This document shows, piece after piece, positions 1-23,275 of a stretch of 64,000 nucleotides of DNA. Source of the DNA: Massilia oculi (GTDB taxonomy: Bacteria; Pseudomonadota; Gammaproteobacteria; Burkholderiales; Burkholderiaceae_D); NCBI RefSeq assembly GCF_003143515.1, contig NZ_CP029343.1, positions 558,001-622,000 on the forward strand, given 5' to 3'. Position numbers and translations under genes: made by a program. Positions within the stretch are counted from its first letter, which is position 1. Each line of letters opens with the position of its first letter. The notes below the pieces were generated by a model, which saw only the letters and a program-made list of their open reading frames with translations, had not been told where the DNA came from and did not search any database.

Positions 1-627
1 GCGCTGGCCCTGCCGCGCCTGAGCCGCTACCGTGAGACCGGCGCCCAGGAACTCGAGGTCGGCCTGAACGCCCAGCTGCTGCCCGGTGCGCCGGGCAAGG
101 ACAGCGTCATCCGCTTCGCGGTCGACGATGCCGACGAGCTGCACGCAATCACTCCGGCCGGCCGCCAGCGCATCGCCGCGCCGTCGCAGTTCGCGCCGCT
201 CGACAACGCCAGCATCCGCCTGCTTGCGGTCCAGCAGCAGCTGGCCGAGCGCTACCGCGCGCTGCTGGTGCTGCCGGAAGGCCCGTCGCAGCCTGCGGCA
301 GCGGGCACGCGCCTGACCTTCGGGCGCGGCATGCCGTCGCTGGGCGCGCTGCGCGTGCTCGACACGCCGCAATTCGTGCGTCAGGGTGACGGCGCCCCGG
401 CCGCCAGCGCCGACCGTCTTGGCCTGTCGCGCAACGCCTTCAGCTGGGAAGCCTCCAGCGAAGGCCTGCGTATCGCGCGCCTGTCGCCTACCCAGGCGCT
501 GTACCACCTCGACGAGCATTTGGCCCTGGTGGCCCAGATCGAGAGCGCGACCCAGGATCAACCCTATGTGATCCCGCCTGGCCATCACCTGGTGGCCGGA
601 CACTACGTGCTGCGTTTCGACGCTTGA
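1..627 (+). CDS. FHA-like domain protein, C-terminal part (5' end outside window)
   Basis: The reading frame is open from the first base and stops at 625-627, giving 208 residues with no start inside the window. The last 110 residues look like a forkhead-associated fold: a GRG near the start of the segment, then LGLSRNAFSWEASSEG in the place of the usual SRxH/SRxxF phosphothreonine-binding loop, and a closing strand with IPPGHHLVAGHYVLRF. FHA domains bind phosphothreonine peptides, which would fit the PP2C, kinase and second FHA protein farther right. The FHA call is by eye and the residue-level match is weak. The next gene overlaps its stop by four bases, so the two are probably cotranscribed. 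Confidence 0.55.
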   Translation, partial: ALALPRLSRYRETGAQELEVGLNAQLLPGAPGKDSVIRFAVDDADELHAITPAGRQRIAAPSQFAPLDNASIRLLAVQQQLAERYRALLVLPEGPSQPAAAGTRLTFGRGMPSLGALRVLDTPQFVRQGDGAPAASADRLGLSRNAFSWEASSEGLRIARLSPTQALYHLDEHLALVAQIESATQDQPYVIPPGHHLVAGHYVLRFDA

Positions 628-1097
628 CGACGATGGTCACCTGGACTCACGCGGCCGCCTACGCGGTGGCTTTGGTGCTGACCTTGTGTGCCTGCGCCTG
701 GCTCACGCCGCGCGCCTGGTGGCGGCGGCCGAATGCGCGCGCGCTCGGCGTGCTCGGAGTCGGGACCGCGGTTGGCGGGACGCTGTTGCTGGCCGTGTCC
801 GGGACTTCGGCGCCGGCCCTGGAGCCGGTGCAGTCGGCACAGGCGCGGGAGGTGGCAGGCATCGATCTGCCGGTCGCCGGTGCCCGCTACCGCGTGCACG
901 ATGCGCTCAACCTGCGTGTGGCGGGCGGCGTCGGCGCTGAACGGCTGCTGGTGGTGCCGGCCGGCGCGCGGGTGGAAGCGACCGGCTTGCGCGAAGGCGA
1001 CTGGTGGCAGGTGCGTGCGACGGTCGATGGCAAGGCGGTCGAGGGCTGGGCCAGCAGCCTGTGGCTGCGGCGGGCAGGCGAAGGACCCGGTGTCTGA
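624..1097 (+). CDS. Membrane-anchored SH3-type domain protein
   Basis: A 157-residue protein. The start is TTG at 624 (overlapping the upstream stop as TTGA) or ATG at 633; the overlap favours translational coupling. Two hydrophobic segments (about residues 8-27 and 40-57) precede an exported domain. From about residue 85 that domain reads like a bacterial SH3 (SH3b) fold: a LNLRVAGG strand, a VPAGARVEATG turn, GDWWQVRA and GWASSLWL at the end. SH3b domains usually bind peptidoglycan or peptides in the envelope. It probably works with the FHA-like protein encoded just before it. The specific function is unknown. Confidence 0.6.
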   Translation: MTTMVTWTHAAAYAVALVLTLCACAWLTPRAWWRRPNARALGVLGVGTAVGGTLLLAVSGTSAPALEPVQSAQAREVAGIDLPVAGARYRVHDALNLRVAGGVGAERLLVVPAGARVEATGLREGDWWQVRATVDGKAVEGWASSLWLRRAGEGPGV

Positions 1098-1812: not shown

Positions 1813-1844
1813 AGAACTCCTTATTTCCTGTTGACGAAGCGATG

Positions 1845-2588: not shown

Positions 2589-2633
2589 CGACCAGCAGTA
2601 TAGCGAGCCGGCCAGCGCGTACGCTCACCAATT

Positions 2634-3356: not shown

Positions 3357-3646
3357 GAAAATAGCAGGGGATATTGCGGCGAACGTTAGACGCTCGCCGC
3401 ATGCGGACCGGCACGCGTGTCCAACATACCCTAACCGATCACCAGGCACAAGCTGCACACCGCTGAGACCAAGAATTGTTTTCAACATAATGGATTCGCG
3501 CACTCAGCGTTATGTTGTCATCAACACTTCATCATCGATACGTAAGCTGGCCGGCGCTGTACGTGTTTCTTTGCCATCCATCCAACCGACCGGATCAATC
3601 CAATGCAACCACACGACTTTGCCCCGCTCATCATGCAGGTGCGCCC

Positions 3647-5818: not shown

Positions 5819-5837
5819 ACCTCACAAGGAGTCTTCC

Positions 5838-6512: not shown

Positions 6513-6554
6513 CGCTGCTGTCGACGTCCATGGTGTGCAGGCGGGCGGTGCGCG

Positions 6555-7040: not shown

Positions 7041-7148
7041 GACATGGTTTGACAGTGTTGCGTGGAGAGTAAACATACCACAGCGTTGATTTTCCATAAT
7101 GCAATTTTATTGACGAGCGAGCGGACCCCGTCCTACCATGGTTCGACC

Positions 7149-8414: not shown

Positions 8415-8476
8415 TCGTGTCTTTCATCCGTCACGCGAGCGTGTAAAGTGGCGCCATCATCCTGAACATTTTGCCA

Positions 8477-9460
8477 ATGCCAGTCACGCTCGCCGATTTC
8501 CGTTTCGCTCCCTGCTTCGACGTCGCGGTCGCGAGCCGCGTCGGTTGCGGCCCGTCCACCCGCGCCGAGAACCAGGACAATTTCGTCGTCATCGATTTCG
8601 ACGGCCGCGCCTGCCGCCTGCAGGACCAGCAGCCCTTCCCTGTCACTGTGGACGGCTGGCCGGCCGGGCATGGCCGGCTGGCGGTGCTGGACGGCATGGG
8701 CGGCCATGGCCATGGCCGCGAAGCGGCCGAAGCGCTTGCGGCGGCCTTGCTGGCGATGCCGGCCTGCGCCACATTGGAAGAACTGAGCGGGCGGCTGGAC
8801 GCGATCCACGCCGGCCTGCAGGCGCGCTTCGCCCACGGCGCCAGCGGCGCCGGGCGGCCCGGCACCACGCTGACCCTGCTCGAATTGCCGGCGAGCGGCG
8901 CGCCGCTGCTGTACCACGTGGGCGATTCGCGCCTGTATGAACTCGATGCGGCGCACGCCACGTCCCTCACAGTCGACCACGTGCCGGCCACCGTGGCCGC
9001 CCTCGCCGGCCGCCTCGACGAAGCCCACTGGTGGCGCCAGGTGCACGGACGCCATGCGCCGCAGATCGCCCAGGCTTTCATCCTTGGCAACGCCTTCGCC
9101 GATCCGACGCGCCTGTCCGATCCGCTGTTCGCCCTGAGCCCGGATAACCTGCCCTGCTGGCTCGCCCACCTGGCCGACCGCCGCGCGCTACCCCTGCGGC
9201 CCGGCGCGGCCTACCTGCTGGCCACCGACGGCTTCTGGTCCTGCGCCCAGCCGGACGGTTTCGTCGCCGGCTGGCCGGCCCAGATGCAGGGCGATCCGGA
9301 TGCGGTGACCCTGGTCGAGCGCCTGTTTGGCCTGCTGGAAAACGATCCGCCGGCCGGACTGCAGCCCGACAACCTGACCGCCCTGGTCGTGCGCCCACTG
9401 GCCCGCCACGCGGACGAAACCGTCCTGCCGGTGGAAGCCCCGGCCAAAGCCACCAACTGA
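8477..9460 (+). CDS. PP2C-like Ser/Thr protein phosphatase
   Basis: A 327-residue protein of the PPM/PP2C superfamily. Conserved metal-binding motifs are visible: ENQDNFVVID (motif 1, about residue 33), AVLDGMGGHGHGREAA (motif 2, about 73), GTTLTLLEL (about 132), HVGDSRLYEL (about 148), LLATDGFWS (about 250) and a final DNLTALVV (about 300). The acidic metal ligands appear intact, so it should be an active Mn/Mg-dependent phosphatase. A TTG two codons upstream (8471) is an alternative start. It precedes the FHA gene on the same strand and faces the kinase gene; it probably removes phosphate that the kinase at 11598-13861 adds. Confidence 0.88.
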   Translation: MPVTLADFRFAPCFDVAVASRVGCGPSTRAENQDNFVVIDFDGRACRLQDQQPFPVTVDGWPAGHGRLAVLDGMGGHGHGREAAEALAAALLAMPACATLEELSGRLDAIHAGLQARFAHGASGAGRPGTTLTLLELPASGAPLLYHVGDSRLYELDAAHATSLTVDHVPATVAALAGRLDEAHWWRQVHGRHAPQIAQAFILGNAFADPTRLSDPLFALSPDNLPCWLAHLADRRALPLRPGAAYLLATDGFWSCAQPDGFVAGWPAQMQGDPDAVTLVERLFGLLENDPPAGLQPDNLTALVVRPLARHADETVLPVEAPAKATN

Positions 9461-9576
9461 TCTAATGCTTTTAGAAAATAATGTTGTTAATCAACGAACT
9501 TGGTGCGCCGTGCGGTTCAAAAACAGCGTAAGCTTGCAATATTGATTTCGACCATTACTTGACTTGTCGCCCTGAC

Positions 9577-11145
9577 ATGAACCGCTGCCGCAATCCCGAG
9601 CATCCGCACTGCACCGTCTGGGTCCTGCCCGGCGACGCCCTGTGCGCGCACGGGCATGCCCAGCCCGAGGTCCAGGCCGCGCTGCAGCCTTCCCCGCCGC
9701 CGGCAGCCACCGCGCCGGCCGTCGGCCTGCCGTCGAGTTTCGACGCCATCACCGCCCTGCGCAGCCGGCGCCCGACCGACATCGGGCCGGCGCCGACGCT
9801 CCCCCGGACCAACCTGCAACGCCCCCAGCTGCACATCAGCGGTTTCGACCCGCGCGCCGCCGGCGGCCGCCAGGCGATCCGACTCGAGCTGCGCGGCATG
9901 CCGATGGATTGCGCGCCCGAGGTGCGCATGCTGGTGCGCTCGGCGCTGCGCCTGCACGGCGGCGAAAGCTATGCGTTCCAGCGCACCTCGCGCGGCGACT
10001 GGCGCCCCCTGTTCCTCGAGTTTTCCTCGCGCGGCCTGGAACACGGCCAGTACCGCATCGAGATCGAGCTGCACAGCCATCATCGCCAGGCCCCGGAATC
10101 GAATCGCACCTGGACCTGCTCGCCCGTCATCCTGGTGCCGCGCCAGGACGCCAGCCTGGGCGAGATCCACCAGACCTTCCTCGCCACCCACAAGAACGTG
10201 CGCGTGACGGCCGACGACGCCGGCATCGCCCGCATGAATGCCACCGGCGGCGCTCTCGGCGGCGGACGGATCGATATCGACGTCAATGCCCGCAATGCCT
10301 CGATCGCCCAGCTGAACCTGGACGGCGGCGGCGGCAGGATCGACCTCGGCATGTCGACCATCGCCTGGGACGAAGACCTGATCGAGATCGACATCCCGGT
10401 CGAGGCCGCGCAGCATCCCTGTCCCGTGACTGGCGCCTGCCTGGTGCACGCCGAGGCCGACTCGGCCACCCAGCGCCACGTGCGCCTGTTCGCGCTCGAC
10501 GAGTGCGTGCTGGGCCGCTTCGAGAGCATCGCGCCCGAGGCCGACCTGCTGCTGGCCCACCACGGCGAAACCGGCGCCGAGATTGGCGGCCTGACCCGCC
10601 GACTGTCGGGACGACACGCCGTCATCCGCCGCAGCCGGCATGGCTTCGAGATCGAGGACGTGTCGCGCTATGGCCTGCTGCTGGACGGCGTCTGGCCCGG
10701 CAAGCACATGCCGGTGCAGCTGCGGCTCGGCATGCGGATCGAATTGACGGCCAGCATCAAGGGCATCGTCACGCTCGAGGTGACGGCCCTGATGGCGCAC
10801 GCGGTCGTGCTGCACCGCCTCGACGCCGGCGCGCGCGCCGAATGCTTCTACCTGATGGCGCCGGACTGCCTGCCCGCTCCCAACCGGCCCCAGCAAGCGT
10901 CCAGCATGCCGCGCGCCGCGGCGCTGCCGATGCTGTTCCATCGCGACGGCGGCTTCTGGCAGCGCGACCGCGACAGTGGCCGCGAGACCCCGCTGGCGCC
11001 GCAGGCCCGGCTGGACCGCCTGCAGCAGGCGGGCCTGGGCATGGCGGCGCGCTTCGTGGCGCAGGCTTATCCAGAGGCGCATGGCGGCCACCGCGGCGGC
11101 GGCGAACGCCACCACCACGCTCTCACGATCGCACTCGACGCCTGA
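9577..11145 (+). CDS. FHA domain protein with N-terminal Cys/His motif
   Basis: A 522-residue protein starting at ATG 9577. The N-terminus has MNRCRNPEHPHC then PGDALCAHGH, a short Cys/His pattern like a zinc ribbon. The middle (about 70-300) is an unfamiliar beta-rich region. From about residue 310 an FHA domain is seen: ECVLGRFESIAPEADLLL, GGLTRRLSGRHAVIRRSR (the phosphothreonine loop with SGRHA) and FEIEDVSRYGLLLDG. FHA domains read phosphothreonine marks. It lies between the PP2C gene and the kinase cluster and is a likely reader or substrate of that kinase. The C-terminal 100 residues have no recognised domain. Confidence 0.8.
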   Translation: MNRCRNPEHPHCTVWVLPGDALCAHGHAQPEVQAALQPSPPPAATAPAVGLPSSFDAITALRSRRPTDIGPAPTLPRTNLQRPQLHISGFDPRAAGGRQAIRLELRGMPMDCAPEVRMLVRSALRLHGGESYAFQRTSRGDWRPLFLEFSSRGLEHGQYRIEIELHSHHRQAPESNRTWTCSPVILVPRQDASLGEIHQTFLATHKNVRVTADDAGIARMNATGGALGGGRIDIDVNARNASIAQLNLDGGGGRIDLGMSTIAWDEDLIEIDIPVEAAQHPCPVTGACLVHAEADSATQRHVRLFALDECVLGRFESIAPEADLLLAHHGETGAEIGGLTRRLSGRHAVIRRSRHGFEIEDVSRYGLLLDGVWPGKHMPVQLRLGMRIELTASIKGIVTLEVTALMAHAVVLHRLDAGARAECFYLMAPDCLPAPNRPQQASSMPRAAALPMLFHRDGGFWQRDRDSGRETPLAPQARLDRLQQAGLGMAARFVAQAYPEAHGGHRGGGERHHHALTIALDA

Positions 11146-11166
11146 CGCCGCCTGTCAGGCGAGCGC

Positions 11167-11277
11167 TCAGCCGTGCGGCGGGATCAGGATCAGGAAGACC
11201 AGCGCCGCGCCGGCCAATAGTGCGGCCTGCAGGGCGAACACGATCGCCGGTGCCCGCAGATGTTCAGGAATCTTCAT
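11167..11277 (-). CDS. 36-residue single-pass membrane peptide
   Basis: A small gene: ATG 11277, stop 11167-11169. It encodes MKIPEHLRAPAIVFALQAA followed by a continuous hydrophobic helix (LLAGAALVFLILIPPHG). A strong Shine-Dalgarno sequence GGGAGGTG lies at 11282-11289, four bases before the start, which makes translation likely. One membrane helix with a short cytoplasmic N-terminus is predicted. Small membrane peptides often modulate a larger membrane complex; the partner is unknown. It lies downstream of the pirin remnant, at the far end of the kinase cluster. Confidence 0.55.
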   Translation of the reverse strand: MKIPEHLRAPAIVFALQAALLAGAALVFLILIPPHG

Positions 11278-11367
11278 GGTTCACCTCCCGTATGCAATGA
11301 GCCCACGTTGGTGAGGCCAGCTTACGCCTGCCCGCAACCCGCCCGCGCCAGTTAGCCGCGCGGCAAG

Positions 11368-11568
11368 TCAGTCGTGGCGCCAGGCCGACGGCAAAGGCGG
11401 CAGCGGAATGCGTTCAGTTTCTCCGGGCAGCGCGACGAAGCGGTCCGCTTCCCAGTTGTGCGCCGCCTGCTCGATGCGCTCACGGCTGGCCGAGACGAAA
11501 TTCCAGAAGATGAAGCGCTTGCCGTCCAGCGGCGGGCCGCCGATCACGACGAAGCGCGCTCCTGGTCG
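11368..11568 (-). pseudogene. C-terminal remnant of a pirin family gene
   Basis: About 66 residues in one frame match the end of pirin (quercetinase-like cupin) proteins: [19 protein letters not shown], then [17 protein letters not shown] and the terminal [12 protein letters not shown]. The N-terminal three quarters are missing; the frame upstream of 11568 is the antisense or shifted reading of the kinase-FGE gene. No start or Shine-Dalgarno site precedes it. This is best read as a decayed gene cut off when the neighbouring cluster was joined to it. A complete pirin is at 31817-32686. The fragment could be read by read-through from the kinase gene, which ends 29 bases upstream. Confidence 0.75.
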
Positions 11569-11597
11569 AAAAGGCCGTGCTTGACTGCACACCGGAG

Positions 11598-13861
11598 TTA
11601 CAACTCGCGCACCACCCGAAAGCCGACGATATCGTTCGACAGCACGGCCGAGAAGCCGTTGCGCAGCGCCGAGCGCAGGTAACGCGGGTTGTACAGCCAT
11701 GAACCGCCGCGCAGGATGCGCCGCACCTGGTCGCCGCCCAGTTCCCAGGCGCTGCCGTCGCCTGGCGCGCCCTCGTAGTTGTCGTGCACCACGTCCTGCA
11801 CCCATTCCCAGACGTTGCCATGCATATCGTGCAGGCCCCAGGCATTCGGCTGGAAGATGTCGGCCGGCGTGGTGCCGTGCCGGAACTCGCCGCGCGGCCC
11901 GCCGTTATAGGTGAAGCTGCCGTCGAAATTGGCGTGCAGGGTCGTAATGGTGTCGCCCACATTGAACGCGGTCCTGCTGCCGGCGCGGCAGGCGTATTCC
12001 CATTCGGCCTCGCTCGGCAGGCGGTAGCGCTTGCCCGTGGCCGCGCTCAGCCAGGCCACGTACTGCTGCGCGTCGAACCAGGTCACGCCCACCACCGGAT
12101 GCATATCGGTCTGCGGGAAACCGGGGGATTCCCAATCGACCTCGCCATGCTGTTCCCAGCCGCTCGCCCGCACGAAGGCGCGCCACTCGCCAACCGTCAC
12201 CGGATAGCGGCCCATGGCAAAGGGGCGTTCGATGCCGACCCAGTGCTGCGGCGTCTCGCGCGCGATCCAGTTCTTTTGCGAGCCGGCCGCCATCGCGATG
12301 CGGCGTTCGTGCTCGGGCGAGCCCATCTCGAAACGGCCGGCCTGGATCAGGACCAGGGCCGGACCGTTGCCGCTGCCGTCGGTGAACGGGTCGTGCAGGA
12401 TGGCGCCGGGGTCGACGGCCGGCACCGATGGCGCCGGAGCGGTTGGGGCCGGAGCCGCCTGCCCGACCACCCGCGCCGCTTCTTCCTCGCGCGCCTTCTT
12501 CTGCTCCGCGAGATACGCGGCGGCGGCCTTGGCCTGGGCAGCCTTGCGTGCCGCTTCTTCCTTGGCCGCCTGCGCCTTCGCCACTTCTTCGTCGCGCTTG
12601 GCCAGCAACTGCTGGCGCAGCGAGTCCTTGCGCGCCAGGCGCGCCTCCTCGGCCGCAGCCCGTTCGCGCCGCTGCTGTTCGCGCAACTGGATGCGACGCT
12701 GCTCGTCGAGCCGTGCCTGGGCCGCCGCCGCGGCTTCAGCCTCCACCTTGCGGCGTGCAGCCAGCTCGCGCGCTTCCTTCTCTGCTTCGACCCGGCGCGC
12801 CGCCTCCTGCGCGGCCAGTTCCTCGGCCGATGGGCCGGCCGCGGCGCGGATCGCGTCCAGCAGCGCATGCACCGTGGCCGGCCGCTGCGCCGGGTCGGAT
12901 GCGAAGCCGGCGCGCAGCACTTCCCACTGGCGCGCGCCGAGCGTCTCGGGCACCTGTCCCCCGGTGCGCCGGGCAGCACGCCGGTGAGCAGCTGGTGGAT
13001 CATCACCGCCACCGCGTACACGTCGAGCGTCGGCTCCGGCACCCGGCCTTCGAGCGCCGCCTCGGGCGCGCGGTAGCCGGCGGTGCCGGACGTCGCCGGC
13101 GCGTCGAGCGGCGACATGGCGCCGCTGGCGCGGGCGCGCGCGGCGATGCCGAAGTCGAGCAATTTCACTTCGCCCTTGCGGGTGACGAACACATTGCCCG
13201 GCTTGATGTCGCGGTGGACCAGGCGGTGCTTGCCCCAGGCGTAGTCGAGGGCATCGGCCACCGGGTCGAGCAGCGCCAGCACGCGGTCCAGGGGCAGGCG
13301 CGACTCGCGCGCCAGCACGGCGTCGAGGTCCTCGCCTTCCAGGTACTCCATGATGATGAAGTAGCTGGACGTGGCCGGATCCTGGGCCCATTCGTAGACG
13401 CGCACGATGTGCTCGTGCGCCAGACGCCGCGCGCGCGTGGCCTCCTGGATCAGGAGCTTGGCGTGGCTCGCCGCCTGGGTCAGGTGCGGGGGCAGGATCT
13501 TGAGCGCCACCTGGGCGCTGTGCCCCAGTTCGGCGTGGGTGGCAAGGTCGGTCGCCTGCCACACCTGGCCCATGCCGCCGTGGGCGATCAGGCGCTCCAG
13601 CCGGTAGCGGCGGGTTTGCGGGCCGATTTCCTGGCCGGCCATCAGGCCGATCTCGGTGCCGGGACGCGCCATGGGTACGCCGGGCTCGGGGTAGATTTCC
13701 GTGCCGGGCGCCTGAGGTTCGGCCCCGGCGCCGGCGCGCTCGGCCGGCGTATAGGCCGCGTCCAGGATCGCGTTCTTGCGCAGGTCGAACTCCTGACGGC
13801 TCAGCAAGCCGTCTTCGTGCAGCGCGCGTAGTTCGCGGATCTTGTCGATGGCAGTCTGCAT
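11598..13861 (-). CDS. SHOCT - Ser/Thr kinase - coiled coil - formylglycine-generating-enzyme-like fusion (apparent frameshift)
   Basis: With one base restored it encodes about 754 residues. Residues 1-32 look like a SHOCT segment ([19 protein letters not shown]). A Hanks-type kinase follows (about 80-320) with GGMGQVW (glycine loop), Lys121 in [14 protein letters not shown] with catalytic Asp218, and DFG with Asp236. A highly charged Ala/Glu/Arg helix (about 340-470) links to an FGE-sulfatase domain (about 500-754) with [33 protein letters not shown] and [12 protein letters not shown]. The frame breaks at a run of five C (12958-12962); adding one gives [10 protein letters not shown] and rejoins the frames. 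Without it the protein stops just after the kinase core. It starts 10 bases after the SPFH gene stop. Confidence 0.85.
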
Positions 13862-13871
13862 TGCTATTGAA

Positions 13872-15926
13872 TCACGCCGGCAGCGTCGCTCCGCATGCGG
13901 CGCAGAAACGGTCGTCACGTCCGGCAGGGTGGCCGTGGACGCACTGGCGCGCGCTGGCGACGCCAGTAGCCAGCGCTGCCTGCGAGGTCAGCGCCGCCTT
14001 GTTCACATCGTTCTGCATGGCCAGCAGGTCGAGCTGGTGGCGCCGGTCCTTGTCGACCTCGTGCTCGCGGCGCGCCTGTTCCGCGGCGACCCGCGCATCG
14101 GCCAGCGCCGCGTCGATCTTGCCGACGCCGGCCACGCCGGCCAGCGCCGTCAACTGGTCGCCATCCATCGAGGCATGCACGCGCGTTTTCAGGTAGTCGG
14201 CCAGCACGGCCGCATTCGGCGCCTCGCTCAGTGCCAGCTTGGCGGTATCGTCCATCGCGCCCAGGGCTTGTGCGCGCGCCATCGCCAGCCGGGCCAGTTC
14301 GAGTTCGTGGGCGCGGTCGGCCGCGCGCGCACCTTCCGCGATGCCGGCGCGGCGCTCGTCGGCCTCCAGGGTGACGTCCTGCATCCGGCGCGCGTGCGTG
14401 GCGTCGGCATCGATCGTGCGCAGCAGCTTTTCGTGCTGGGCCTGGGCGTCGGCCCGGCCGGCGCCGCGGCGCACGCTCTCGATGCGCTGGCGCGCCTGTT
14501 CGTCTTCCCATTCCTGCGCCCGTTCGGCCTCGCGCCGGCGCGCCTCGTTGGCCAGCTTCAGGGACTGGAACGTCGCCTCGTGCTCGGCGCCCTCGATGTC
14601 ACGCATTCGCCGCGCTGCTTCTTCTTCGCTTTCGCGCAGCCTTGCCAGCTCGGCGCGCTGGCGGGCCGCGTCCTCGATCTGGCGCGCCTGTTCGATCTTG
14701 TTGCGGATCTGCTGTTGCAGCAGCTGCTGGGAGAAGCGCTGCTGGGCCAGCTGGCGCGCCTGGGTGGCCTCTTGCTGGGCGCCCGCGATCTCGGCGCGCA
14801 TGCGCACGCCGGCCAGCGCCCGCAGGTGCTGCCACTCGGCCGTCTCGTCGGCACGCTGCGCGTTCTTGTGCGCCATCTCGTGGTCGAGTTCGGCCAGCAC
14901 CTCGGCCGCGCCGTTGGCCAGCGCCTGCTTGCGCGAATCCGCCTCGAGGATGCGCCCATACAGCTCGATCTGGCGCGCCCGCACGCCATGCGCGCGATCG
15001 GCGCCCTGCAGGGACAGTTCTGCGCGCGCGATGGCGTCATCCTGGCGCAGCTCGGCGCGGCGCAGCCGCAGCCGCCCTTCTTCTTCGCTGCGCTTGATGC
15101 GCTGCCATTCCTCGGCCGTGTACAGCTCGTCCAGCTGGCGGCTGTGAGCCAGTTGCACGTGTTTTTCGTCGGTCGCCAGCCACAGGCTGCCGATGCGGGC
15201 CCGGTTGGTGTCGTATTTGTCGTGGCGCAGCTCGAAGGTCTCGACCGCCGTCACCGCCAGGCCGTAACCGGCCAGGAGCGTCCTGAGGCCGCCCTGCAGG
15301 CGCTGATCGAGCTGTTCGCGCAGTTCGCCATTGGCCGCCAGCTCGCGAATCGAGCGCGCGCCGATGAACTCCAGCGCGAGCTGGCGCACCGGATGCGACA
15401 GCAGTTCGCGCAATTCGCCGGCGCCGATCGTGCCCGGCGTGGTCATGAAATGGCGGGCGAAGGCCGGCACATGCTCGATCCTGACGCTGACCGAGAAACG
15501 CAGGGCGATGTCGAGATGTTCGCAGGTGGGGATGTCGGCGAATTCGAACGGCACCGCCAGCGCGCCGGTGCGGGTGACGAGGATCTCGGCGTGCTGGTCG
15601 CGCAGCAGGTGGTTCAGGCGGGTGAAGAAGCCTTCGATCTCGTACTCGCCCTGCGGCACCTCGGTGGCTTTATCTCCTTGCAGGATGAAGCCGCGCGCCG
15701 TGGCAGGCACGCGCAGCGTCTTGACGAACAGGCCGGATAGTTCGCGCACGCCGAAGAACACGGCCAGCTCGTCGGGACCCGGCACCCAGCGGTTCTCGAC
15801 CAGCACCGGCTTGTTGCGCGGGGCGCCCAGGATCACGCCGCAGCCGGCGCAATAGCGCGCCTCGGGCGCGTTCCTGCACTCGCAGCGCGGACAACTGGCG
15901 CCTTTAACTCCGAACATCTGCAACAT
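13872..15926 (-). CDS. SPFH/band-7-like protein with zinc ribbons at both ends
   Basis: A 684-residue protein. The N-terminus has Cys12, Cys15, Cys27 and Cys30 (CPRC then CAGC), and the C-terminus has CVHGH at 662 and CAAC at 675-678, so a zinc ribbon is likely at each end. Residues about 45-235 resemble an SPFH (band 7) domain, including GEYEIEGFFTRLNHLLRD, a FEFADIPTCEHLDIALRF strand and LLAGYGLAVTAVETFEL. From about 260 to 600 the sequence is a long charged coiled coil. Such virion-core-like or flotillin-like proteins form large rings on membranes. No membrane helix is seen. It is 145 bases downstream of the S16-like gene and directly upstream of the kinase. Confidence 0.75.
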   Translation of the reverse strand: MLQMFGVKGASCPRCECRNAPEARYCAGCGVILGAPRNKPVLVENRWVPGPDELAVFFGVRELSGLFVKTLRVPATARGFILQGDKATEVPQGEYEIEGFFTRLNHLLRDQHAEILVTRTGALAVPFEFADIPTCEHLDIALRFSVSVRIEHVPAFARHFMTTPGTIGAGELRELLSHPVRQLALEFIGARSIRELAANGELREQLDQRLQGGLRTLLAGYGLAVTAVETFELRHDKYDTNRARIGSLWLATDEKHVQLAHSRQLDELYTAEEWQRIKRSEEEGRLRLRRAELRQDDAIARAELSLQGADRAHGVRARQIELYGRILEADSRKQALANGAAEVLAELDHEMAHKNAQRADETAEWQHLRALAGVRMRAEIAGAQQEATQARQLAQQRFSQQLLQQQIRNKIEQARQIEDAARQRAELARLRESEEEAARRMRDIEGAEHEATFQSLKLANEARRREAERAQEWEDEQARQRIESVRRGAGRADAQAQHEKLLRTIDADATHARRMQDVTLEADERRAGIAEGARAADRAHELELARLAMARAQALGAMDDTAKLALSEAPNAAVLADYLKTRVHASMDGDQLTALAGVAGVGKIDAALADARVAAEQARREHEVDKDRRHQLDLLAMQNDVNKAALTSQAALATGVASARQCVHGHPAGRDDRFCAACGATLPA

Positions 15927-16071
15927 ATCCGACTCCGTTCTATCCTGTACTTCTCGTCACTTCCGATTACAAACCTGCCGTCCAGCCACTGGATTCTAGC
16001 AGGGCCATGCCTCCGGCACGGATCGCTCCCGTGCGTGGGGTGCGATCCGTCAATCCCAGCCCGACGCCCAG

Positions 16072-17064
16072 TTAGATGATGCCGATCCGCTCGACGCAGG
16101 CCAGGCTCGCGCCGCGCGCGCGCAACGCTTCGCGCAATCCCTGCGGCAGGGCGGTTTCCCACTCCTTCGGCAGCAGGATGCGGTCGCCCGGGCCGGCTTC
16201 GCGCGCGATCAGCGCGCATTTCGGCGCCAGTGCCTCGACCGCCTCGACCCGTCCCGCATGCCAGGCGCTGGAGCTGCCGGTGGCGATCACCCGGCCACGC
16301 GCCAAAAATTCGCGGCCGCGCGCCATGCGGTCGGCCATCACCAGCGCCAGCTGGTAAGAGTCGCCCGAGAAGCGCGGCTCGCCGAAACGCACCGTGGTGC
16401 GCCACTGGCCCTGGCCACGGCCGTCGAAGTGGCGCGACCCGGCCAGCACCGCCGCCACCTGCGCCTGGCGCACCGCATCCACGTCCGGCACGCTGACAGG
16501 ATCGTCTTCGCCGCTCCCGGCCCTGGCCAATGGCCGCACGCTGACCTCGACCCAGCCCAGGCCGTCGTGTTCGCCGCCGCTGTGCATCGGGAACCAGGCG
16601 CGCGCGCTGGAGATCGCGGCGGCGGGATCGGGCTGGCCGTTCAGAACGCCCAGGTGCGCCAGGGCGTCGGCGCCGCCCAGCAACACGCCGTCGGGCATCC
16701 CTGCCAGCCGACGACCGTCGATCCGGCCCAGGTGCCAGGCATCGGACCAGCCGTTGGCCACGACCTCGCGCTTCGGCGCAAAGACGTCGCGCACGATACG
16801 GTCGGCCAGCACCGCCGCCAGTTCCCAATCGCGGTCGGCGTCGAGCGGCGCGCGGTCCAGGCTCAGCACCACTTGGTCGCGGCTGTCGACGCGCGGCTCG
16901 GTGTGGCGCGCCAGGCGCACCACCTGCTGAATGCGCTCGGCCACGCCGGGTGCGCCCGGCACGCTGCACTTGACGTCGGCGCGTCCGGCGCGCGGACGGC
17001 GTGTGGCGGTGATCGTCAGCATGCCGCCGTCAACGGCGATGCTGCGGCACTGGATAGCGGTCAT
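16072..17064 (-). CDS. Lon/S16-like protease-fold protein with conserved Ser-Lys pair
   Basis: A 330-residue protein without an ATPase domain. Its C-terminal half aligns by eye with the Lon proteolytic domain: GDSYQLALVMADRM places Ser236 where Lon has GPSAG, and GRVEAVEALAPKCALIAREA aligns without gaps to the Lon segment GQVLPIGGLKEKLLAAHRGG, placing Lys282 on the catalytic lysine, followed by DRILLPKEWE for VIPxEN. The Ser-Lys distance is 46 residues, close to the 43 in E. coli Lon. The N-terminal half looks like a degenerate second copy (DWELAAVLADRI, GRIDGRRLAGM) lacking the serine. It overlaps the upstream SPFH-like gene by four bases (ATGA), so the two are coupled. Function is inferred only. 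Confidence 0.55.
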   Translation of the reverse strand: MTAIQCRSIAVDGGMLTITATRRPRAGRADVKCSVPGAPGVAERIQQVVRLARHTEPRVDSRDQVVLSLDRAPLDADRDWELAAVLADRIVRDVFAPKREVVANGWSDAWHLGRIDGRRLAGMPDGVLLGGADALAHLGVLNGQPDPAAAISSARAWFPMHSGGEHDGLGWVEVSVRPLARAGSGEDDPVSVPDVDAVRQAQVAAVLAGSRHFDGRGQGQWRTTVRFGEPRFSGDSYQLALVMADRMARGREFLARGRVIATGSSSAWHAGRVEAVEALAPKCALIAREAGPGDRILLPKEWETALPQGLREALRARGASLACVERIGII

Positions 17065-18167
17065 ACCTCCTCCAGCTCCACTTCACGCGCAGTGACGGCG
17101 CGCCGCGCGCCGGCCTCGGTCTCGAGATTGGCCACGATGCGGTCGGCCTCGTCGAACAAGGCGTCGAGCGGGCCCTCGCCGGCCACCTTCAGGCGCGCCA
17201 GCAGGGCCCAGGCCTCGTCCAGCGCGGCGGCGGCGCGGCGGCTGTGGCGCGCGCGCCGCAGCTGCTCTTCCTGCGCCAGCGGCTGGCCGGGAGCCGCCAG
17301 CTCCAGGGCCGGCATGGTGCCGACCGACAGGCTCACCAGGTCGAGCCGGCGCAGCAGGTCCTGGTGCTGGCGGAAGCGTTCCTGGTCGGCCGGCAGCACC
17401 GCCATGCGCACCGCGCACATCAGGCAGGGCAGCTCGAGGAACAGGCGGCGCAGCGCGCGCGCGTCCTCGCAGGCGGGAACGAACGCTTGCTGCGGCGCCA
17501 CCGGGGCGAGCGCACCCTCGCGGGCGGCGGCCGACGGATGGACGGCATCGAGCCGCGCGGCCAGGCGGGCATCGAGCGTGGCCGCATAATCGCGCGCGGC
17601 GCCCAGGTCGACCGGCACGCAATCGTCGACCGTCACGCCAAAGCGGGTATACAGCAATTGGTTGAAACCGGTGCGGAAGGCATTCCACTCTTCCAGGGTG
17701 GTGCATGGAGGCAGCTCCAGGTTGCCCTGGGCCAGCTCGCGCTGCAGCGCGGTCTGCGCCAGCTCGACGAATCCGCCCAGTTCGACCATGCAGCCTGCCT
17801 CGCTGGCCAGGAACAGGTCGAAGCGCTGGTGCGTGGCGCGCGGGTCGCTGGCGTCGATCGCGAAGTGCACCCGCAGCCCGATCTCGGGCGCGCCTGCGAA
17901 CGGCGTCAGCTCGCAAGTGTAAGGGCCGGGATGGACGCACCATGCGGTTTCGCCCTCGATCGCGGCGATGCGGCTGCCGGCCGCCTGGCGCCGGCTGCGT
18001 CCGGCCTGGTCGACCAGCACGGCGGCGCAGCCCGGTGGGACGGTGAGGCCATTCGGCGCCGGCAGCGCGATCGCCACGCCGCCGAGGCGACTCGCGTCGA
18101 ACTCCGGCTGCCGCAGCGGGCGCAGCGTGTTCTGCAATGTACTCTTGAACAGCGAACCTAGCATCAT
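17061..18167 (-). CDS. SPFH-like protein of unknown function
   Basis: A 368-residue protein. I see features reminiscent of an SPFH domain: an opening GGVAIALPAPNGLTVPPG, AAVLVDQAGRSRRQAAGSR, GPYTCELTPF and GLRVHFAIDASDP, then a helix and a FNQLLYTRFGVTVDDCVPVD segment as in the end of that fold. The C-terminal third is helical and charged. There is no signal peptide or clear membrane helix. Its last four bases overlap the start of the S16-like gene. SPFH proteins are often paired with a membrane-associated protease (the NfeD type), and a Lon-like domain here would be a variation on that theme. The SPFH call is tentative. Confidence 0.5.
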   Translation of the reverse strand: MMLGSLFKSTLQNTLRPLRQPEFDASRLGGVAIALPAPNGLTVPPGCAAVLVDQAGRSRRQAAGSRIAAIEGETAWCVHPGPYTCELTPFAGAPEIGLRVHFAIDASDPRATHQRFDLFLASEAGCMVELGGFVELAQTALQRELAQGNLELPPCTTLEEWNAFRTGFNQLLYTRFGVTVDDCVPVDLGAARDYAATLDARLAARLDAVHPSAAAREGALAPVAPQQAFVPACEDARALRRLFLELPCLMCAVRMAVLPADQERFRQHQDLLRRLDLVSLSVGTMPALELAAPGQPLAQEEQLRRARHSRRAAAALDEAWALLARLKVAGEGPLDALFDEADRIVANLETEAGARRAVTAREVELEEV

Positions 18168-18193
18168 CGTCCTTCCGGTATCTCAGAACACCA

Positions 18194-18760
18194 CTATGTG
18201 ATCGGCGTCGCCCGAGGAATCACCTCGAAGCGTGCCCCATGCTGCTGGAAATGCGCCGCGGGCGGCGCTTCGAAAGGCCACCGCCCCTCGCACTCGCCGT
18301 CGGCATCGAGTTGCCCTTCCAGGACCAGCTCGCCGCGGCCATCGCGCACCTGGATCGCCGGCCGCGCCGCCATCACCCCGGCCGCACCCGCCGCTTCCGG
18401 GTCGAGCTGGACCACCACGGCCAGGCTGCCCGCGGCGTCGACGAAGTGCAGGCGCCACATGCCGTCGTCGGTGCGCAGCAGGTCCAGGGCATTGCCGCCA
18501 TCGGCGGCGCGCAACAGGCCGCGGCTGCCGCGCCAGTTGCCGGACAGCGCCTGCGCGCGCCGGCTGTCCGCCAGGTGGCGCAGGCGGCGCAAGGTCAGTG
18601 GCGAGCCTTGCAGCGCGGCGCGTTCGCCCGCCGTCAAGGGCCGGCTGCCGTCCAGCGCCTGCGCCAGCACCTCGTCGGCCAGCACCAGGCGGTCGCCCGC
18701 GATCCGGCGTCCCAGCAAGGCGCCGGCCTGCAGCTTGCGATCCAGTTCCGTCATGCCCAT
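18194..18760 (-). CDS. Hypothetical protein in the kinase-SPFH cluster
   Basis: A 188-residue protein that I do not recognise. ATG 18760 is preceded by a strong AGGAGG at 18768-18773, inside the end of the upstream gene, so its start overlaps that gene by ten bases and it is translationally coupled. The first 75 residues are helical and Arg/Leu-rich; the rest alternates strand-like stretches (DDGMWRLHFVDAAGS, GELVLEGQLDADGE), suggesting a small beta domain. No signal, membrane helix or metal motif was seen. Its place inside an operon suggests a structural or adaptor role. Confidence 0.6.
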   Translation of the reverse strand: MGMTELDRKLQAGALLGRRIAGDRLVLADEVLAQALDGSRPLTAGERAALQGSPLTLRRLRHLADSRRAQALSGNWRGSRGLLRAADGGNALDLLRTDDGMWRLHFVDAAGSLAVVVQLDPEAAGAAGVMAARPAIQVRDGRGELVLEGQLDADGECEGRWPFEAPPAAHFQQHGARFEVIPRATPIT

Positions 18761-20048
18761 CGTCTTTCCTCCTCCATTCCCGCCATCTCGTTCAGACGGT
18801 TGATCGCGGCGTCACGCCGCTTGCGCAGCGTCGGCAGCGAAATCCCGTCCAGCCCGGCCAGCTGCTGCATCGTCGGCAGCTCGCCGGTTTGCGGATCCAG
18901 CCATTCGGACGGATAGCTGTCGTCGAATGGACCGAGCAGCTTCAGATACACCGCCAGCCGCACCGGCAGCGAATCCTGCGCCATCCGGCGCGCCGCCCAG
19001 CTGGCGCGGTCTTCTGCCAGCGCCGCCAGTAGAGAATAGTTGGGGGGAGTGAAAGCTGTTGCGCCACCAGGGCCAGGCGCGCGGCTTCCTCCGGCTCGAC
19101 CGGGTCGGCGTCAAACGCCTCCCCGGCGTCGGCGACGTCCAGCTCGTCCTGGCGCGCTTCCAGGATCAGGTCGGGACCGGGCGTGCTGCCCTGTTCCGAC
19201 TCATCCAGCACGCGCCAGTAGTCGTCCAGCCAGGCGTTGGCCTCGCCCGCGTCGTGCAGCCAATCCTGGTCGCGGTTGGCCGACAGCAGTTCGTATTCGC
19301 CGATCTCGCGCAGCATGACGCCGATCTTTTCGGGGCTGTTCTTGAGGCTGGCGAAACGCTTGGACCTGGTGTGCAGCGGGCCGGCCGCGCCGGTATGCAA
19401 CTCGAGGCTTTCGCTCCAGCGCACGATCCATTCGGGCTTGCAGTCGCCGCTCGTGCGCAGCTGGCGCGCCTCGATCGGCATCGCCACCACCTCGCGACCC
19501 AGGATGGCGCCGACTTGCGGCGCATGCTCGCGCCAGAGCTCGAACAGGCGTGCGACCTCGTGCCAGGCGGTATCGAGCATACGGTAGGCATACATGCGGT
19601 TGGGACTGCACGGACGGCCGCAGGCGGCCTGGTAGTTGTCGCTGTCGACCTTGTCGCGCAGGACGGCATACAGGTCGTTGAATTTCTTGCGCAGCTGCGC
19701 CTCGCCGCCGGGCTGGGTCCAGAACGGACCGCTGCGCGCATGCTCGGCCGCCACCGCCGCGCACAGAAAGGCCCAGTCCGACGGGCGCGCCTGCAGCTCG
19801 TAGACGAGGGTCAGGGCCAGCTCGCCGCAGGTGTCGCCGTAGCTGTTGCCGTGCGCTTCGGCACGCGTACCGGCCGTACGCAGGGCCTGGGCCACCGCGT
19901 CGACATAGGCGCCAAGCGACTGTTCAGGATCCGGATCGAGCAAGGTATCCGGCTCGATCCGGGCGCACGCCTGCAGGGAACAGTGTCCCAGCAGCTTGCG
20001 GACCTGCTCCCAACCGTGTTCCTGATACCGGGTTCCCGGCAAACGCAT
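18751..20048 (-). CDS. Unknown protein with possible HTH-like C-terminus (apparent frameshift)
   Basis: ATG 20048 follows GGGGAAGG by a few bases. With one base restored at a run of six G (19042-19047) the product is about 432 residues: the first frame ends with AQQLSLPP and the second continues NYSLLAALAEDRASWAARRM. Without it the upstream frame reads 30-odd aberrant residues and stops at 18942. The first 300 residues are unfamiliar. The last 60 contain PTMQQLAGLDGISLPTLRKR followed by RDAAINRLN, which resembles a helix-turn-helix and recalls sigma region 4; this is weak evidence. It lies between the transpeptidase gene and the 188-residue protein. Confidence 0.6.
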
Positions 20049-20140
20049 ACCTTCCCCATCCTCTGTTTCGCTCCGCGGGTTTTTGCGGATTGAAATAGAT
20101 GATGCCATACAAACACGGCCTTGAGGCGCGCAGGAGAGCC

Positions 20141-23100
20141 CTATTTGTGCCTCTTTTCCAACGACTGGCCTTCCAACGACGATTGCATTGACTGCAAAAG
20201 AGCGGCCACGACGGGAGCCGCATGGCCGCCGCCGGTGGCCGCGGAATGGCTCACGAAGGCGGCGAATGCCAGTCGCCGGGTCTGGCCCGGCAGGCTGCCC
20301 GGCTCGAGCCAGCCCATGAACCAGACGGTCGCCAGCTCGTCCTGGCCGGCCGGCGCCGTGCCGGTCTTGCCGTACAGGCCAGGGCGCAACGCGTCGAAGC
20401 CGGCCGCGCGAAACGCCCCGGCCGCGGTGCCGCCGTCGATCACGCCTTTCATCCCGGCGCGCACGCGGTCCAGGCGCACGCCCAGCGGCTCGCCCGCCCC
20501 CGTCTGGGCCGCGCGGCCGTCGAGCGACAGCAGCAGGCGCGGCGTCACGGTGTGCCCCTCCCCGACCGCCGCCGCCACCAGCGCCATCTGCAGCGGCGTG
20601 GTCTGCATGCGCAGGCCGATCGCCATCTGGCGCAGCTCGTGGCGGCTGTGGACCGGGTCGAGGCGCGAGGCGCTGGCCTGCAGCGCGTCCCACTCGCCCC
20701 AGCGGTAGTCAGGCGGCAGCAGGCCCCCGTCGAGCCGCAGCGGCTGGCCGAAGCCAAGTCGTCCCGCCATCGCCGCCACCGGCCGCACCGTGTCCAGCGC
20801 GCCCGGTTCCAGTTCGCGCGCGCCCGGCATGCCGCCGTCGGGCTGGTCCATCAGCGTGCGGTCGCTCAGTTCCGCGCTCCAGGCGAACCAGGTATTGACG
20901 CTGTGCGCCATCGCCTGCGCCAGCCCGAGGCGGCCGTCCTGGGCGCGGGTGCTGGTGATCTGGTCGCGGAAATTGGTGATGCGGGCCCGGTTGCCATCGA
21001 AGGGATAGCTGGGCGCGCCGGTGCGAAAATCGTAGCCGCCCGCCTGCGCCAGCCGGTCCACCTCATGCAGCGGCAAACCCTGGAGCAGGCCGTCCAGGCG
21101 GGCGTCACCGCGCGCGGCTCCCTCCAGGCCGAGGGCGGTGATCACCTTGAAGGTCGAGCCAGGGGCCCGGTGCGCGCCGCCGTCGTGCTGGAAGGCGGCG
21201 ATGCGCAGTGGGCTGCGCGCCGGGTCGGCGCGGTCGAAGTCGCGCAATTCTCCCCAGCGGCTTGGCTCGGCCTGGCCGCCGCCGCTGGAGGCCGCGGCCA
21301 GGATGTCGCCGCTGCCGGCATCCAGCAGCACCAGGCCGGCGCGCCGCTCCGGCTGGGCATCGAGGCCGCCGACGCAGGCCTGGCCGTCCCAGCGGCCGCC
21401 GCGCAGGCCGATGCAATCGAGCAGCCGCTGGGCCGTGGCCTGCAGGCCCAGGTCGAGGCTCAGATGCGCCACGTGCTCCGTGCCGCCAAGCCGCGCCAGC
21501 ATGCCGGCCACGCTGCCGTCGTGCTGGCGGTGCACGCCCAAGAGCGGCGCCAGGCCGGCGCGCAGCGCCGCTTCGGCCGGCGCGCCGTCGGCCCACAACG
21601 CTTCTCCGTGACGGTCGCGCAAGCGTACCGGCACCGCTTCGGACCGTGCTCCACCGCTGCCGCCGGCCGGCAGCGCCTGCCAGGCCAGGCGGCCACCGAC
21701 CATGGCCAGGTGGCGGTAGGCGGCGTCGGCGCCGCCCGACATCGCCGCCAGGTCGAGCGGCTCGACCTGCACCGCGATCGCGGCCGCCCCGGCCAGTGGC
21801 GCCAGCACGAGCCGCTGCACCGCCTCGCGGTCCGGGCAGGCGCGGCCATCGCAGGCGCCCTGGGCCAGCACGCGGGCGCCCGACACGCCGCGCACCCTGC
21901 CCGCCACCAGCAGCTCGACCGGCCGGCCGGTGGCCGGCGTATTCAAGGTCACGAGCGATCCCTGGCGGCCTCCTTCCCAGCCGCCGACCCGCTGCCACGG
22001 CTCCCAGCCTTCCGGCAGGCGAGCGAACAGGCGCATCGCGGCCACCGGCAGGCCGGCTTCGCGCGGCGCCGGCGCGCCGCCGACCAGCGCATGCCAGACG
22101 GCGTCGGCGCCCGGACGGGTGCGCCAGGCCACCAGCCGCCGCTCGCTATTAAAGATGCGCACCTGCTCGCGCACATAGGCGCCATCGGCGCGGTGGTGCA
22201 GGCGTTCCAGCAGGCGACGGTCGCCGGCGTCCAGCACGTGATCTTGCCAGCCCGGCAGCGGTGCGCGCGCCTGCTGGCCCGCCCGGTGCCAGGCCAGCAG
22301 GTCGCGCGGCGCCAGCTCGACCAAGCCGTCGCGACCCAGGCGCAGCAGGCCGCGCGTGCGCAGCGCCTCGAACAGCGCCTGGTCTTCCATGCCGGGGCCC
22401 GGCAGCAGCGGCACCTGCCATGCCCCGGGCGCCAGGCGCAGCTCTACCTGCTCTCCCTGGGCCGGGAAAGCCTGCACCAGGGCCGCGCCGCCGGCGGCGC
22501 CCTGCTGGAAATGATGCAGCACCAGCTCGCCCGCCTGCGGGCAGGCGGCGCTGGGCCGGCGCGTGAAGCGCAGTGCCTCGCTGCCCCACAGCAGCCAGCC
22601 GCTGCTGCCCAGCATCGCCTGGCCCTGGCGCGCGCGCGTGACGTTGCCGCCGCTGGCATCGCCGATCCAGCCCGCCGTGGCGGCGCCGGCGTTCCAGGCG
22701 ATCGCCAGCCCGCCCGTGCCGGCGCCGGCATTGCCGGTGATGTCGATGCGTGGCATGCCGGAACCCGGCCGCGCCAGCAGCACGCTGCGCGGCGGCGCGT
22801 TGCCGCCGCGCGCGATACGCGCCGCCTCGTCGAATGGGTAGCCGATCCGCAGCGGCAGCATGCGCGGCCGCGCCGGGTCGAGCATCTGGGTGCACAGGTC
22901 GACCCGCAGCGCCGAGCCGGCGCGCATGCCGCTGGCCACCAGCAGGGCCAGGCCGCCGTGCTGGGTGAGCGAAATGCCGCTGTCGCGCGGGACCACGAAG
23001 TCGAGCCCCGGCGCGACCGGCTGCAGGGCGGCCAACGCGACCGCACCGGGCGTCTCGGCCGCGCCGTCCGGCAGCGCACGCGCATGCATCGCCAGCGCCA

Positions 23101-23275
23101 CGGCGCCGCCCAGGACGACGACGACCAGGGACCACAGCCAGGCGGGACCCAGGGACAGCGACCGGCTGGCCTCGGCGCTCGTCGAGCGGGCGCCTGCGCG
23201 CAGGTTGCGGGAACGGCGGCGCGCCGTGCGCGTAGCGGCCAGTTGGTCGATCAGGGTCGCGAGCATGCCTGTCAT
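20141..23275 (-). CDS. Penicillin-binding transpeptidase with large unfamiliar N-terminal region
   Basis: A 1044-residue protein, much longer than a class B PBP (about 600). It has an Arg-rich cytoplasmic start, one membrane helix near residues 45-63, then about 580 residues with no recognised domain, and a C-terminal transpeptidase. All three active-site motifs are present: STFK with Ser707, SVN at 792-794, and KTGTA with Lys970. It should crosslink peptidoglycan in the periplasm. Start ATG 23275 is without a clear Shine-Dalgarno; ATG 23266 is possible. It is the first gene of the minus-strand run ending with the kinase. Pairing of a PBP with kinase, PP2C and FHA genes is known from Actinobacteria. 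Confidence 0.85.
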   Translation of the reverse strand: MTGMLATLIDQLAATRTARRRSRNLRAGARSTSAEASRSLSLGPAWLWSLVVVVLGGAVALAMHARALPDGAAETPGAVALAALQPVAPGLDFVVPRDSGISLTQHGGLALLVASGMRAGSALRVDLCTQMLDPARPRMLPLRIGYPFDEAARIARGGNAPPRSVLLARPGSGMPRIDITGNAGAGTGGLAIAWNAGAATAGWIGDASGGNVTRARQGQAMLGSSGWLLWGSEALRFTRRPSAACPQAGELVLHHFQQGAAGGAALVQAFPAQGEQVELRLAPGAWQVPLLPGPGMEDQALFEALRTRGLLRLGRDGLVELAPRDLLAWHRAGQQARAPLPGWQDHVLDAGDRRLLERLHHRADGAYVREQVRIFNSERRLVAWRTRPGADAVWHALVGGAPAPREAGLPVAAMRLFARLPEGWEPWQRVGGWEGGRQGSLVTLNTPATGRPVELLVAGRVRGVSGARVLAQGACDGRACPDREAVQRLVLAPLAGAAAIAVQVEPLDLAAMSGGADAAYRHLAMVGGRLAWQALPAGGSGGARSEAVPVRLRDRHGEALWADGAPAEAALRAGLAPLLGVHRQHDGSVAGMLARLGGTEHVAHLSLDLGLQATAQRLLDCIGLRGGRWDGQACVGGLDAQPERRAGLVLLDAGSGDILAAASSGGGQAEPSRWGELRDFDRADPARSPLRIAAFQHDGGAHRAPGSTFKVITALGLEGAARGDARLDGLLQGLPLHEVDRLAQAGGYDFRTGAPSYPFDGNRARITNFRDQITSTRAQDGRLGLAQAMAHSVNTWFAWSAELSDRTLMDQPDGGMPGARELEPGALDTVRPVAAMAGRLGFGQPLRLDGGLLPPDYRWGEWDALQASASRLDPVHSRHELRQMAIGLRMQTTPLQMALVAAAVGEGHTVTPRLLLSLDGRAAQTGAGEPLGVRLDRVRAGMKGVIDGGTAAGAFRAAGFDALRPGLYGKTGTAPAGQDELATVWFMGWLEPGSLPGQTRRLAFAAFVSHSAATGGGHAAPVVAALLQSMQSSLEGQSLEKRHK

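Follow-up and report, generated by a model that had tools for sequence, protein, structure and literature searches.

What brings a protein kinase, a phosphatase, FHA and SPFH-like proteins, a Lon-like protein and a large penicillin-binding protein (PBP) together at one place in a betaproteobacterial chromosome? This question is raised by a gene cluster of Massilia oculi, whose complete genome comprises 5.84 Mb. The stretch of DNA that was analysed (64,000 nucleotides, positions 558001-622000 of the genome) is referred to below as the window, and the cluster lies at its left end. We show that the cluster is a conserved gene unit, beyond chance. On balance, and judging from sequence, we favour the view that it encodes an accessory peptidoglycan synthase, which would be additional to the canonical SEDS-PBP pairs of the cell and equipped with its own Ser/Thr phosphorylation circuit and scaffold.

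All the parts named in the initial annotation of this region were found where it had placed them. The cluster also extends ~4.2 kb to the left of the window, into locus L100 (genome positions 540001-559200). FHA_A starts there, 957 bp left of window base 1, and the left-edge open reading frame (ORF) of the initial annotation (268-627) is the C-terminal end of this gene. With a SEDS gene and a second kinase gene just left of the window, the likeness to the kinase-PP2C-FHA-PBP groups of Actinobacteria proved to be closer than had been noted. The genes of the cluster are as follows (TM, transmembrane; aa, amino acids).

L100:13776-14738, left of the window, same strand as SEDS and FHA_A: KIN2, second Hanks kinase, 320 aa, PF00069 at 8.9e-29
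L100:14735-17074, left of the window, same strand as FHA_A: SEDS, divergent FtsW/RodA-like protein, 779 aa, PF01098 at 3e-15
L100:17044-18627, its C-terminal part being window 1..627, plus strand: FHA_A, 527 aa, FHA-like by eye
624..1097, plus strand: SH3, two TM-like segments and a C-terminal bacterial SH3_3 domain, PF08239 at 5.5e-7
8471..9460, plus strand: PP2C-type Ser/Thr phosphatase, below profile cut-offs, motifs kept, orthologue in the distant genome G423
9559..11145, plus strand: FHA_B, FHA-domain protein, PF00498 at 5.8e-5, above cut-off
11598..13861, minus strand: KIN1-FGE, with a SHOCT-like start (below cut-off), a Hanks kinase domain, a coiled-coil-like stretch and an FGE domain
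13872..15926, minus strand: SPFH1, with a zinc ribbon, an SPFH/Band 7-like domain, a long coiled-coil-like stretch and a further zinc ribbon
16072..17064, minus strand: Lon/S16-like protein, 330 aa, residues 152-330 with a predicted Lon protease-domain fold
17061..18167, minus strand: SPFH2, residues ~38-190 SPFH-like by prediction, C-terminal helical bundle
18194..18760, minus strand: g18194, conserved 188-aa protein, no PDB sequence match
18751..20108, minus strand: g18942, conserved ~450-aa protein, start at 20108 or at a conserved Met at 20048
20141..23275, minus strand: class B PBP-like transpeptidase, PF00905 at 3.4e-14, motifs STFK, SVN and KTGT

The suggestion that the left-edge FHA-like and SH3 genes belong to the cluster was borne out. 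KIN2, SEDS, FHA_A and SH3 form a putative operon whose genes overlap one another in the M. oculi genome (the SH3 start overlaps the FHA_A stop). PP2C and FHA_B lie on the plus strand, convergent with a minus-strand run that reads, from 23275 down, PBP, g18942, g18194, SPFH2, Lon-like, SPFH1 and kinase-FGE. PBP and g18942 are separated by 32 bp (92 bp when the conserved Met at 20048 is taken as the g18942 start), and the remaining spacings, in order after g18942, are -10, 26, -4, 145 and 10 bp. A scan of positions 11000-11800 for terminators and promoters found none, and about none were expected.

Is this arrangement a unit, or did the genes come to lie together by chance? The 22 ORFs of the window were compared by tblastn with 30 relative loci from 26 genomes of the genus (four loci duplicate another by sequence). 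The FGE, kinase, SPFH1, Lon-like, SPFH2 and g18194 genes were collinear in 30/30 loci (g18194 is partial in L031). The other members were found in 29 (g18942), 28 (PBP), 29 (FHA_B) and 27 (PP2C) of the 30; among the misses, L031 is rearranged, L010 ends, L012 and L046 end before PP2C, L034 carries other genes at the place of PP2C, and L047 shows several frame breaks. Order and strand are thus kept in 26 genomes while the neighbours change, which rules out chance proximity or a free mix of genes. The initial annotation had held that these genes form one unit and had named free variation of neighbours between related genomes as the observation that would speak against it; within the genus, genes of the gap and the flanks vary, and those of the cluster do not. 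The interval between FHA_B and FGE, for instance, ranges from 0.45 to ~7.6 kb, and its contents, named by eye, differ by genome (MFS transporter, pirin, chemoreceptors and others).

The left-hand genes KIN2, SEDS, FHA_A and SH3 were placed in order by tblastn in six genomes of the genus. The order KIN2-SEDS-FHA_A is kept in nine genomes with a flank that reaches these genes (the six of the genus, G168, G305 and G423); four other flanks are without it, three of them from genera with partial versions of the cluster (L107, L108, L109) and one that stops short (L112). SPFH2 is 95-96% identical to its counterparts in Massilia timonae and M. arenae. SPFH1 was present in 58 of 60 other genomes of the genus and in 0 of 40 outside it; the distribution data rest on 1881 genome look-ups (repeats included) and one named-genome scan. 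The two misses look like assembly gaps, because pieces of the cluster sit at contig ends: in G028, PBP, g18942 and part of g18194 lie at the end of a contig that stops inside the cluster, and in G006 a Lon-like fragment lies at a contig start. Since the cluster is cut at contig ends in both genomes, their co-loss was dropped as evidence. SPFH1 gave no match in 72,556 plasmid records, and a plasmid-borne cluster was rejected on this ground.

What might such a unit produce? The SEDS and PBP genes point to peptidoglycan. The M. oculi genome contains four matches to PF01098 (cut-off 26.4 bits), namely two strong ones, the cluster SEDS at 57.5 bits and a fourth at 26.5 bits, together with ten matches to PF00905 in all. 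One of the strong SEDS genes stands beside a PBP gene (2154314) and the other near another PBP gene (1941637); because of score and neighbour, we read these two as the probable RodA and FtsW. Since both strong SEDS genes lie elsewhere in the genome and have PBP genes of their own beside or near them, the SEDS-PBP pair of the cluster would be an additional one. The cluster SEDS scores far below the NCBIfam RodA/FtsW equivalog cut-off (46 and 41 bits versus about 337). Its profile matches the solved FtsW at 1.4e-5, and it aligns with one canonical SEDS of the genome at the QPxE..K, TDF and PFxS motifs. The Asp of the TDF motif, the catalytic residue of SEDS glycosyltransferases, is invariant (9/9). 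By simple hydropathy the protein consists of one TM-like segment, a ~270-aa domain and nine further TM-like segments (ten in total). The PBP has one TM-like segment at 45-63 and a long N-terminal part before the transpeptidase domain, where no Pfam match to a dimer domain was obtained at E<=0.5. Regular-expression searches found its SxxK, SxN and KTG motifs in 28, 28 and 27 of 28 sequences, respectively, and the catalytic motif residues are invariant in all 11 rows aligned, including that of G423.

A divergent SEDS and PBP beside canonical pairs would also suit a cell-cycle or developmental synthase, which would make a special wall (of a cyst, filament or resting stage) and in which phosphorylation would serve timing only. 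Specialised SEDS-PBP pairs do exist, such as SpoVE-SpoVD in sporulation. Nothing in the cluster indicates a developmental stage, however, and we regard this explanation as unlikely.

For the accessory synthase proposed here, the kinases, the phosphatase and the FHA proteins are the candidate regulators. The kinase domain of KIN1 matches PF00069 at 2e-34 and its FGE domain matches PF03781 at 1.6e-57. The kinase-FGE fusion described in the initial annotation is one open frame in 28/30 relative loci (27/30 by a motif test), but the M. oculi copy is split where a G run near 12960 carries a frameshift. Similarly, a frameshift in a C run near 19040 splits g18942, which forms one open frame in 27/30 relative loci. 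These two homopolymer frameshifts are either sequencing errors or real breaks. The PP2C call rests on motifs (DGMGGH in 26/27 orthologues, GDSR in 27/27, DN in 23/27), because the profile scores fall below cut-off (Pfam, 15 of 24 bits; NCBIfam Stp1 model, 1.1e-8, 35 of 230 bits). FHA_B keeps S-x-R-H in 29/29 and G-R in 24/29 sequences. FHA_A matches no Pfam family at E<=0.5 by sequence profile; its call is therefore a pattern recognised by eye, and its identification as FhaA, which has an N-terminal domain of its own (DUF3662), was rejected.

The remaining genes suggest a scaffold with a peptidase. Structures were predicted for the Lon-like protein and SPFH2. Residues 152-330 of the former take up the Lon protease-domain (S16) fold with clear support, and Ser236 and Lys282 are invariant in 29/29 rows, at offsets from the aligned start that fit those of Lon; the Lon/S16 call made earlier is thus well founded. 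By sequence, this 330-aa protein has no plausible Pfam family (best 0.023, in 1/16 rows), and no AAA+ family was found in it. Its N-terminal half resembles, by eye, a degenerate copy. The predicted structure of SPFH2 (~38-190) resembles the SPFH domains of prohibitin, flotillin and HflK with moderate support (no plausible Pfam family, best 0.016, in 1/16 rows). The Band 7 match of SPFH1 is below cut-off in the window protein (11.9 of 24 bits) and, among relatives, reaches PF01145 at 1.7e-6 at best, with 2/16 rows at E<=0.1. None of the PDB sequence searches with SPFH2, the Lon-like protein, SPFH1, g18942, g18194 or FHA_A reached significance (best 0.079).

From these parts we infer the following order of events. 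SEDS would act as the glycan polymerase and the large PBP as the cross-linking enzyme. KIN2 and KIN1-FGE would phosphorylate proteins of the cluster; the phosphothreonines would then be recognised by FHA_A and FHA_B, which would recruit partners to SEDS, and PP2C would reverse the phosphorylation. SPFH1 and SPFH2 might assemble close to the membrane into a ring or cage holding the Lon-like peptidase. The peptidase would trim a component or remove it, like FtsH with HflK/C, and SH3 may be a periplasmic sensor of the wall. More specifically, and only tentatively, we suggest that Massilia and its relatives possess a further SEDS-PBP synthase with a threonine-phosphorylation switch and a two-component cytosolic SPFH ring carrying an ATPase-free Lon-type peptidase.

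Several findings weigh against a synthase of this kind. Neither KIN1 nor KIN2 has a TM-like segment, and SPFH1 and SPFH2 also lack TM-like segments (simple hydropathy in each case), which lends no support to the membrane-organised version envisaged in the initial annotation. The loci read showed no recognisable AAA+ gene next to the Lon-like one. The kinase domains of KIN1 and KIN2 match the PADLOC model PD-T4-6 (3.9e-55 and 9.6e-33, respectively). In the one-contig relative G043 (L031, L148-L150) the cluster is split over three places, with PBP and g18942 elsewhere and breaks inside PBP and g18194, which reflects either a real rearrangement or a misassembly. Because of this three-piece cluster and the two frameshifted genes of M. 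oculi, the cluster may be dispensable.

Further such findings come from more distant relatives. A family-wide search yielded 84/245 genomes and 7/44 genera (86/245 before G107 and G180 were removed, which matched over a short stretch only, E 4.6e-4). The full minus-strand run was seen, in the loci read, in g44 (L087), g52 (L088), g80 (L085, L086) and one g46 genome (L084), and in a further g44 locus (L090) with the kinase cut by the locus edge; the Lon-like gene was found in 2/6 g46 genomes tested. G101 (g42) has only the five genes g18942-g18194-SPFH2-Lon-like-SPFH1, and kinase, FHA and PBP were not found in 20 kb of its locus L076. The SPFH1 match in this locus begins only at profile position 45, so that the N-terminal zinc ribbon seems to be missing. 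In g72, FHA-SPFH1-kinase (L077-L080) or SPFH1-kinase (L081, L082) stands without a synthase, as does the sub-module SPFH1-kinase-FGE in g46 (L083, L089). Of 11 genomes tested, 7 gave no PBP match at E<=1e-20 (G101, G147, G226, G266, G324, G645 and G775). At the level of the class, FHA_A was matched in 3/274 genomes: besides the own one, these were two from family f119. In G645, of this family, SEDS (match at 1e-132) is adjacent to FHA_A, the other ten profiles have no match in 54 kb and there is no such PBP in the genome. As SEDS stands here beside FHA_A without the other members, SEDS-FHA_A is the pair with the widest conservation observed. In related genera there are partial versions that lack the synthase or the kinase, and the unit is not whole everywhere; of the interpretation first offered, the conserved unit and the actinobacterial likeness stand, whereas its wholeness does not extend to related genera.

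The partial versions bear on a different explanation, in which the cluster serves envelope stress or membrane repair: kinase, FHA and SPFH proteins would sense membrane damage, the peptidase would clear damaged proteins, and SEDS-PBP would be an output attached in some genera. In line with it are the SPFH1-kinase modules of g72 and of the g46 loci L083 and L089, which occur with FHA or without it, the SPFH/Lon core kept alone in g42, and the failure to find PBP in G147, G226, G266 and G324 (the four tested). In B. subtilis, an SPFH protein is reported to tie the phage-shock protein to the membrane (PMC8581546). On the other hand, in genomes that have both parts the synthase genes are adjacent, their order is kept in the genus and they recur in the same region in G423; a PspA-like gene was not noticed in the stretches read, where no search was aimed at PspA. 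We consider this explanation rather improbable.

The accessory synthase reading gains from G423, which belongs to the Burkholderiales but to another family. The g18942 profile matched 5/300 genomes of the order and the FHA_A profile the same 5/300 (four of the genus and G423). Within ~42 kb, G423 carries almost all members of the cluster, those measured being 25-42% identical: KIN2-SEDS-FHA_A, PP2C (an orthologue, 6e-76), PBP (a homologue, 38% identical), SPFH1, SH3 (a homologue in locus L098), FGE proteins, Lon-like, SPFH2, g18194 and g18942. FHA_B was not found in this locus, and no kinase-FGE fusion was seen there. In wider samples, g18942 occurs in 2/349 genomes of the phylum, both of the genus, and a genus-only Lon-like profile in 1/274 genomes of the class, the own one.

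The surroundings in G423 (L106, L098, L128; named by eye, except FtsK and FGE) hold an FtsK-like ATPase, small helical proteins, several caspase-like-FGE proteins and a lytic-transglycosylase-like gene. Next to PP2C there is a gene whose start looks, by eye, like the C-terminal end of an AAA protein and which might provide the Lon-like protein with a motor. Caspase-like-FGE proteins, an FtsK-like ATPase and small helical proteins might also mark a conflict or self-recognition system that has taken up cell-wall enzymes, recalling the NTP-dependent conflict systems; such domains, and combinations of FGE, FHA and kinase-PP2C, are described for those systems in PMC7159879. The PD-T4-6 matches given above and further matches of the kinase domains to mad6 models agree with this idea. 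Nevertheless, these PADLOC matches are confined to the kinase domain, and KIN1 scores similarly against PknB-type models (1.4e-51). No PADLOC model matched SPFH1, Lon-like, SPFH2, g18194, the larger g18942 piece, FHA_A or FHA_B at E<=0.01, and PP2C gave one weak match (0.0017); the scan omitted SEDS, PBP, SH3 and FGE. Since only the kinase domains match PADLOC models strongly, a defence system was rejected. The near-constant presence of SPFH1 in the genus and the plasmid result also argue against a conflict system, which we judge to be very unlikely.

The DNA around the cluster deserves a brief description. Window 1120-8414, between SH3 and PP2C, contains seven ORFs (MarC, phospholipase C, PEP-CTERM-like, GNAT, MFS and two others), of which the phospholipase C, PEP-CTERM-like and 1120-1812 ORFs have no match in the relative locus L029. 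No ORFs intervene in L037 and L039, where PP2C and FHA_B come immediately after SH3. Window 11368-11560 (minus strand) shows a likeness, by eye, to the C-terminal end of the pirin-like protein encoded between FHA_B and FGE in L033, and is probably the remnant of such a gene. Beside PBP, a WXXGXW-repeat protein is encoded at 23903-24406; many of the relative loci also encode it on the far side of PBP, in the opposite orientation. To the left of the cluster, two adjacent ORFs (L100:6657-8042 and 8303-9457) encode secreted-type proteins that by eye are near-identical, apparently the result of a recent tandem duplication.

The best-known cases of SEDS-PBP synthesis under Hanks-kinase control come from Gram-positive bacteria and from Actinobacteria (for the latter, PMC6554272). 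A betaproteobacterial cluster that links such genes with SPFH-like scaffolds and a Lon-type peptidase would make phosphorylation gating of an accessory synthase testable in Gram-negatives, and likewise the role that SPFH assemblies play next to wall synthesis. It also makes a divergent SEDS-PBP pair available for study. Among the literature matches listed (subscription papers and preprints aside), titles and the first lines of abstracts mention no such cluster in Massilia or other Proteobacteria, and no counterpart of the proposed wall-building assembly.

How, finally, does the cluster compare with known systems? With the HflK/C-FtsH and prohibitin assemblies it probably shares SPFH-like folds next to a peptidase-like gene; in contrast to these assemblies, the Massilia SPFH proteins have no TM-like segments, the peptidase is Lon-type without AAA+, and SPFH1 carries zinc ribbons. 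The Lon S16 domain, and the Lon-like domains of RadA, ComM and BrxL, differ in that the Massilia Lon-like protein stands alone, with no ATPase. A kinase-PP2C-FHA logic is found in Proteobacteria in the PpkA-PppA-Fha regulators of type VI secretion, but no type VI secretion gene was noticed in the stretches read, where no search was aimed at them. The NTP-dependent conflict systems likewise combine FGE, FHA and kinase-PP2C (PMC7159879), whereas no vWA, MoxR or STAND NTPase is among the Pfam matches of the scanned proteins. In Actinobacteria, pstP, rodA, pbpA and a kinase gene are linked with fhaA and fhaB and tied to cell-wall synthesis and division, as described in PMC6554272. The fhaA-fhaB-pstP-rodA-pbpA-pknA-pknB locus likewise unites SEDS, a class B PBP, PP2C, kinases and FHA proteins at one place; the Massilia kinases differ in having no TM-like segment and no PASTA match in Pfam, and FHA_A in having no Pfam match. 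Because neither a PASTA/TM kinase nor FhaA was recovered, the cluster is at most an analogue, not a member, of the pstP-rodA-pbpA-pkn-fha locus. Elsewhere, the combination is known from mycobacteria and other Actinobacteria, where it is simpler; in Massilia it has another gene order, is extra to the canonical SEDS, and is enlarged by SPFH1 and SPFH2, the Lon-like protein, FGE, SH3, g18194 and g18942.

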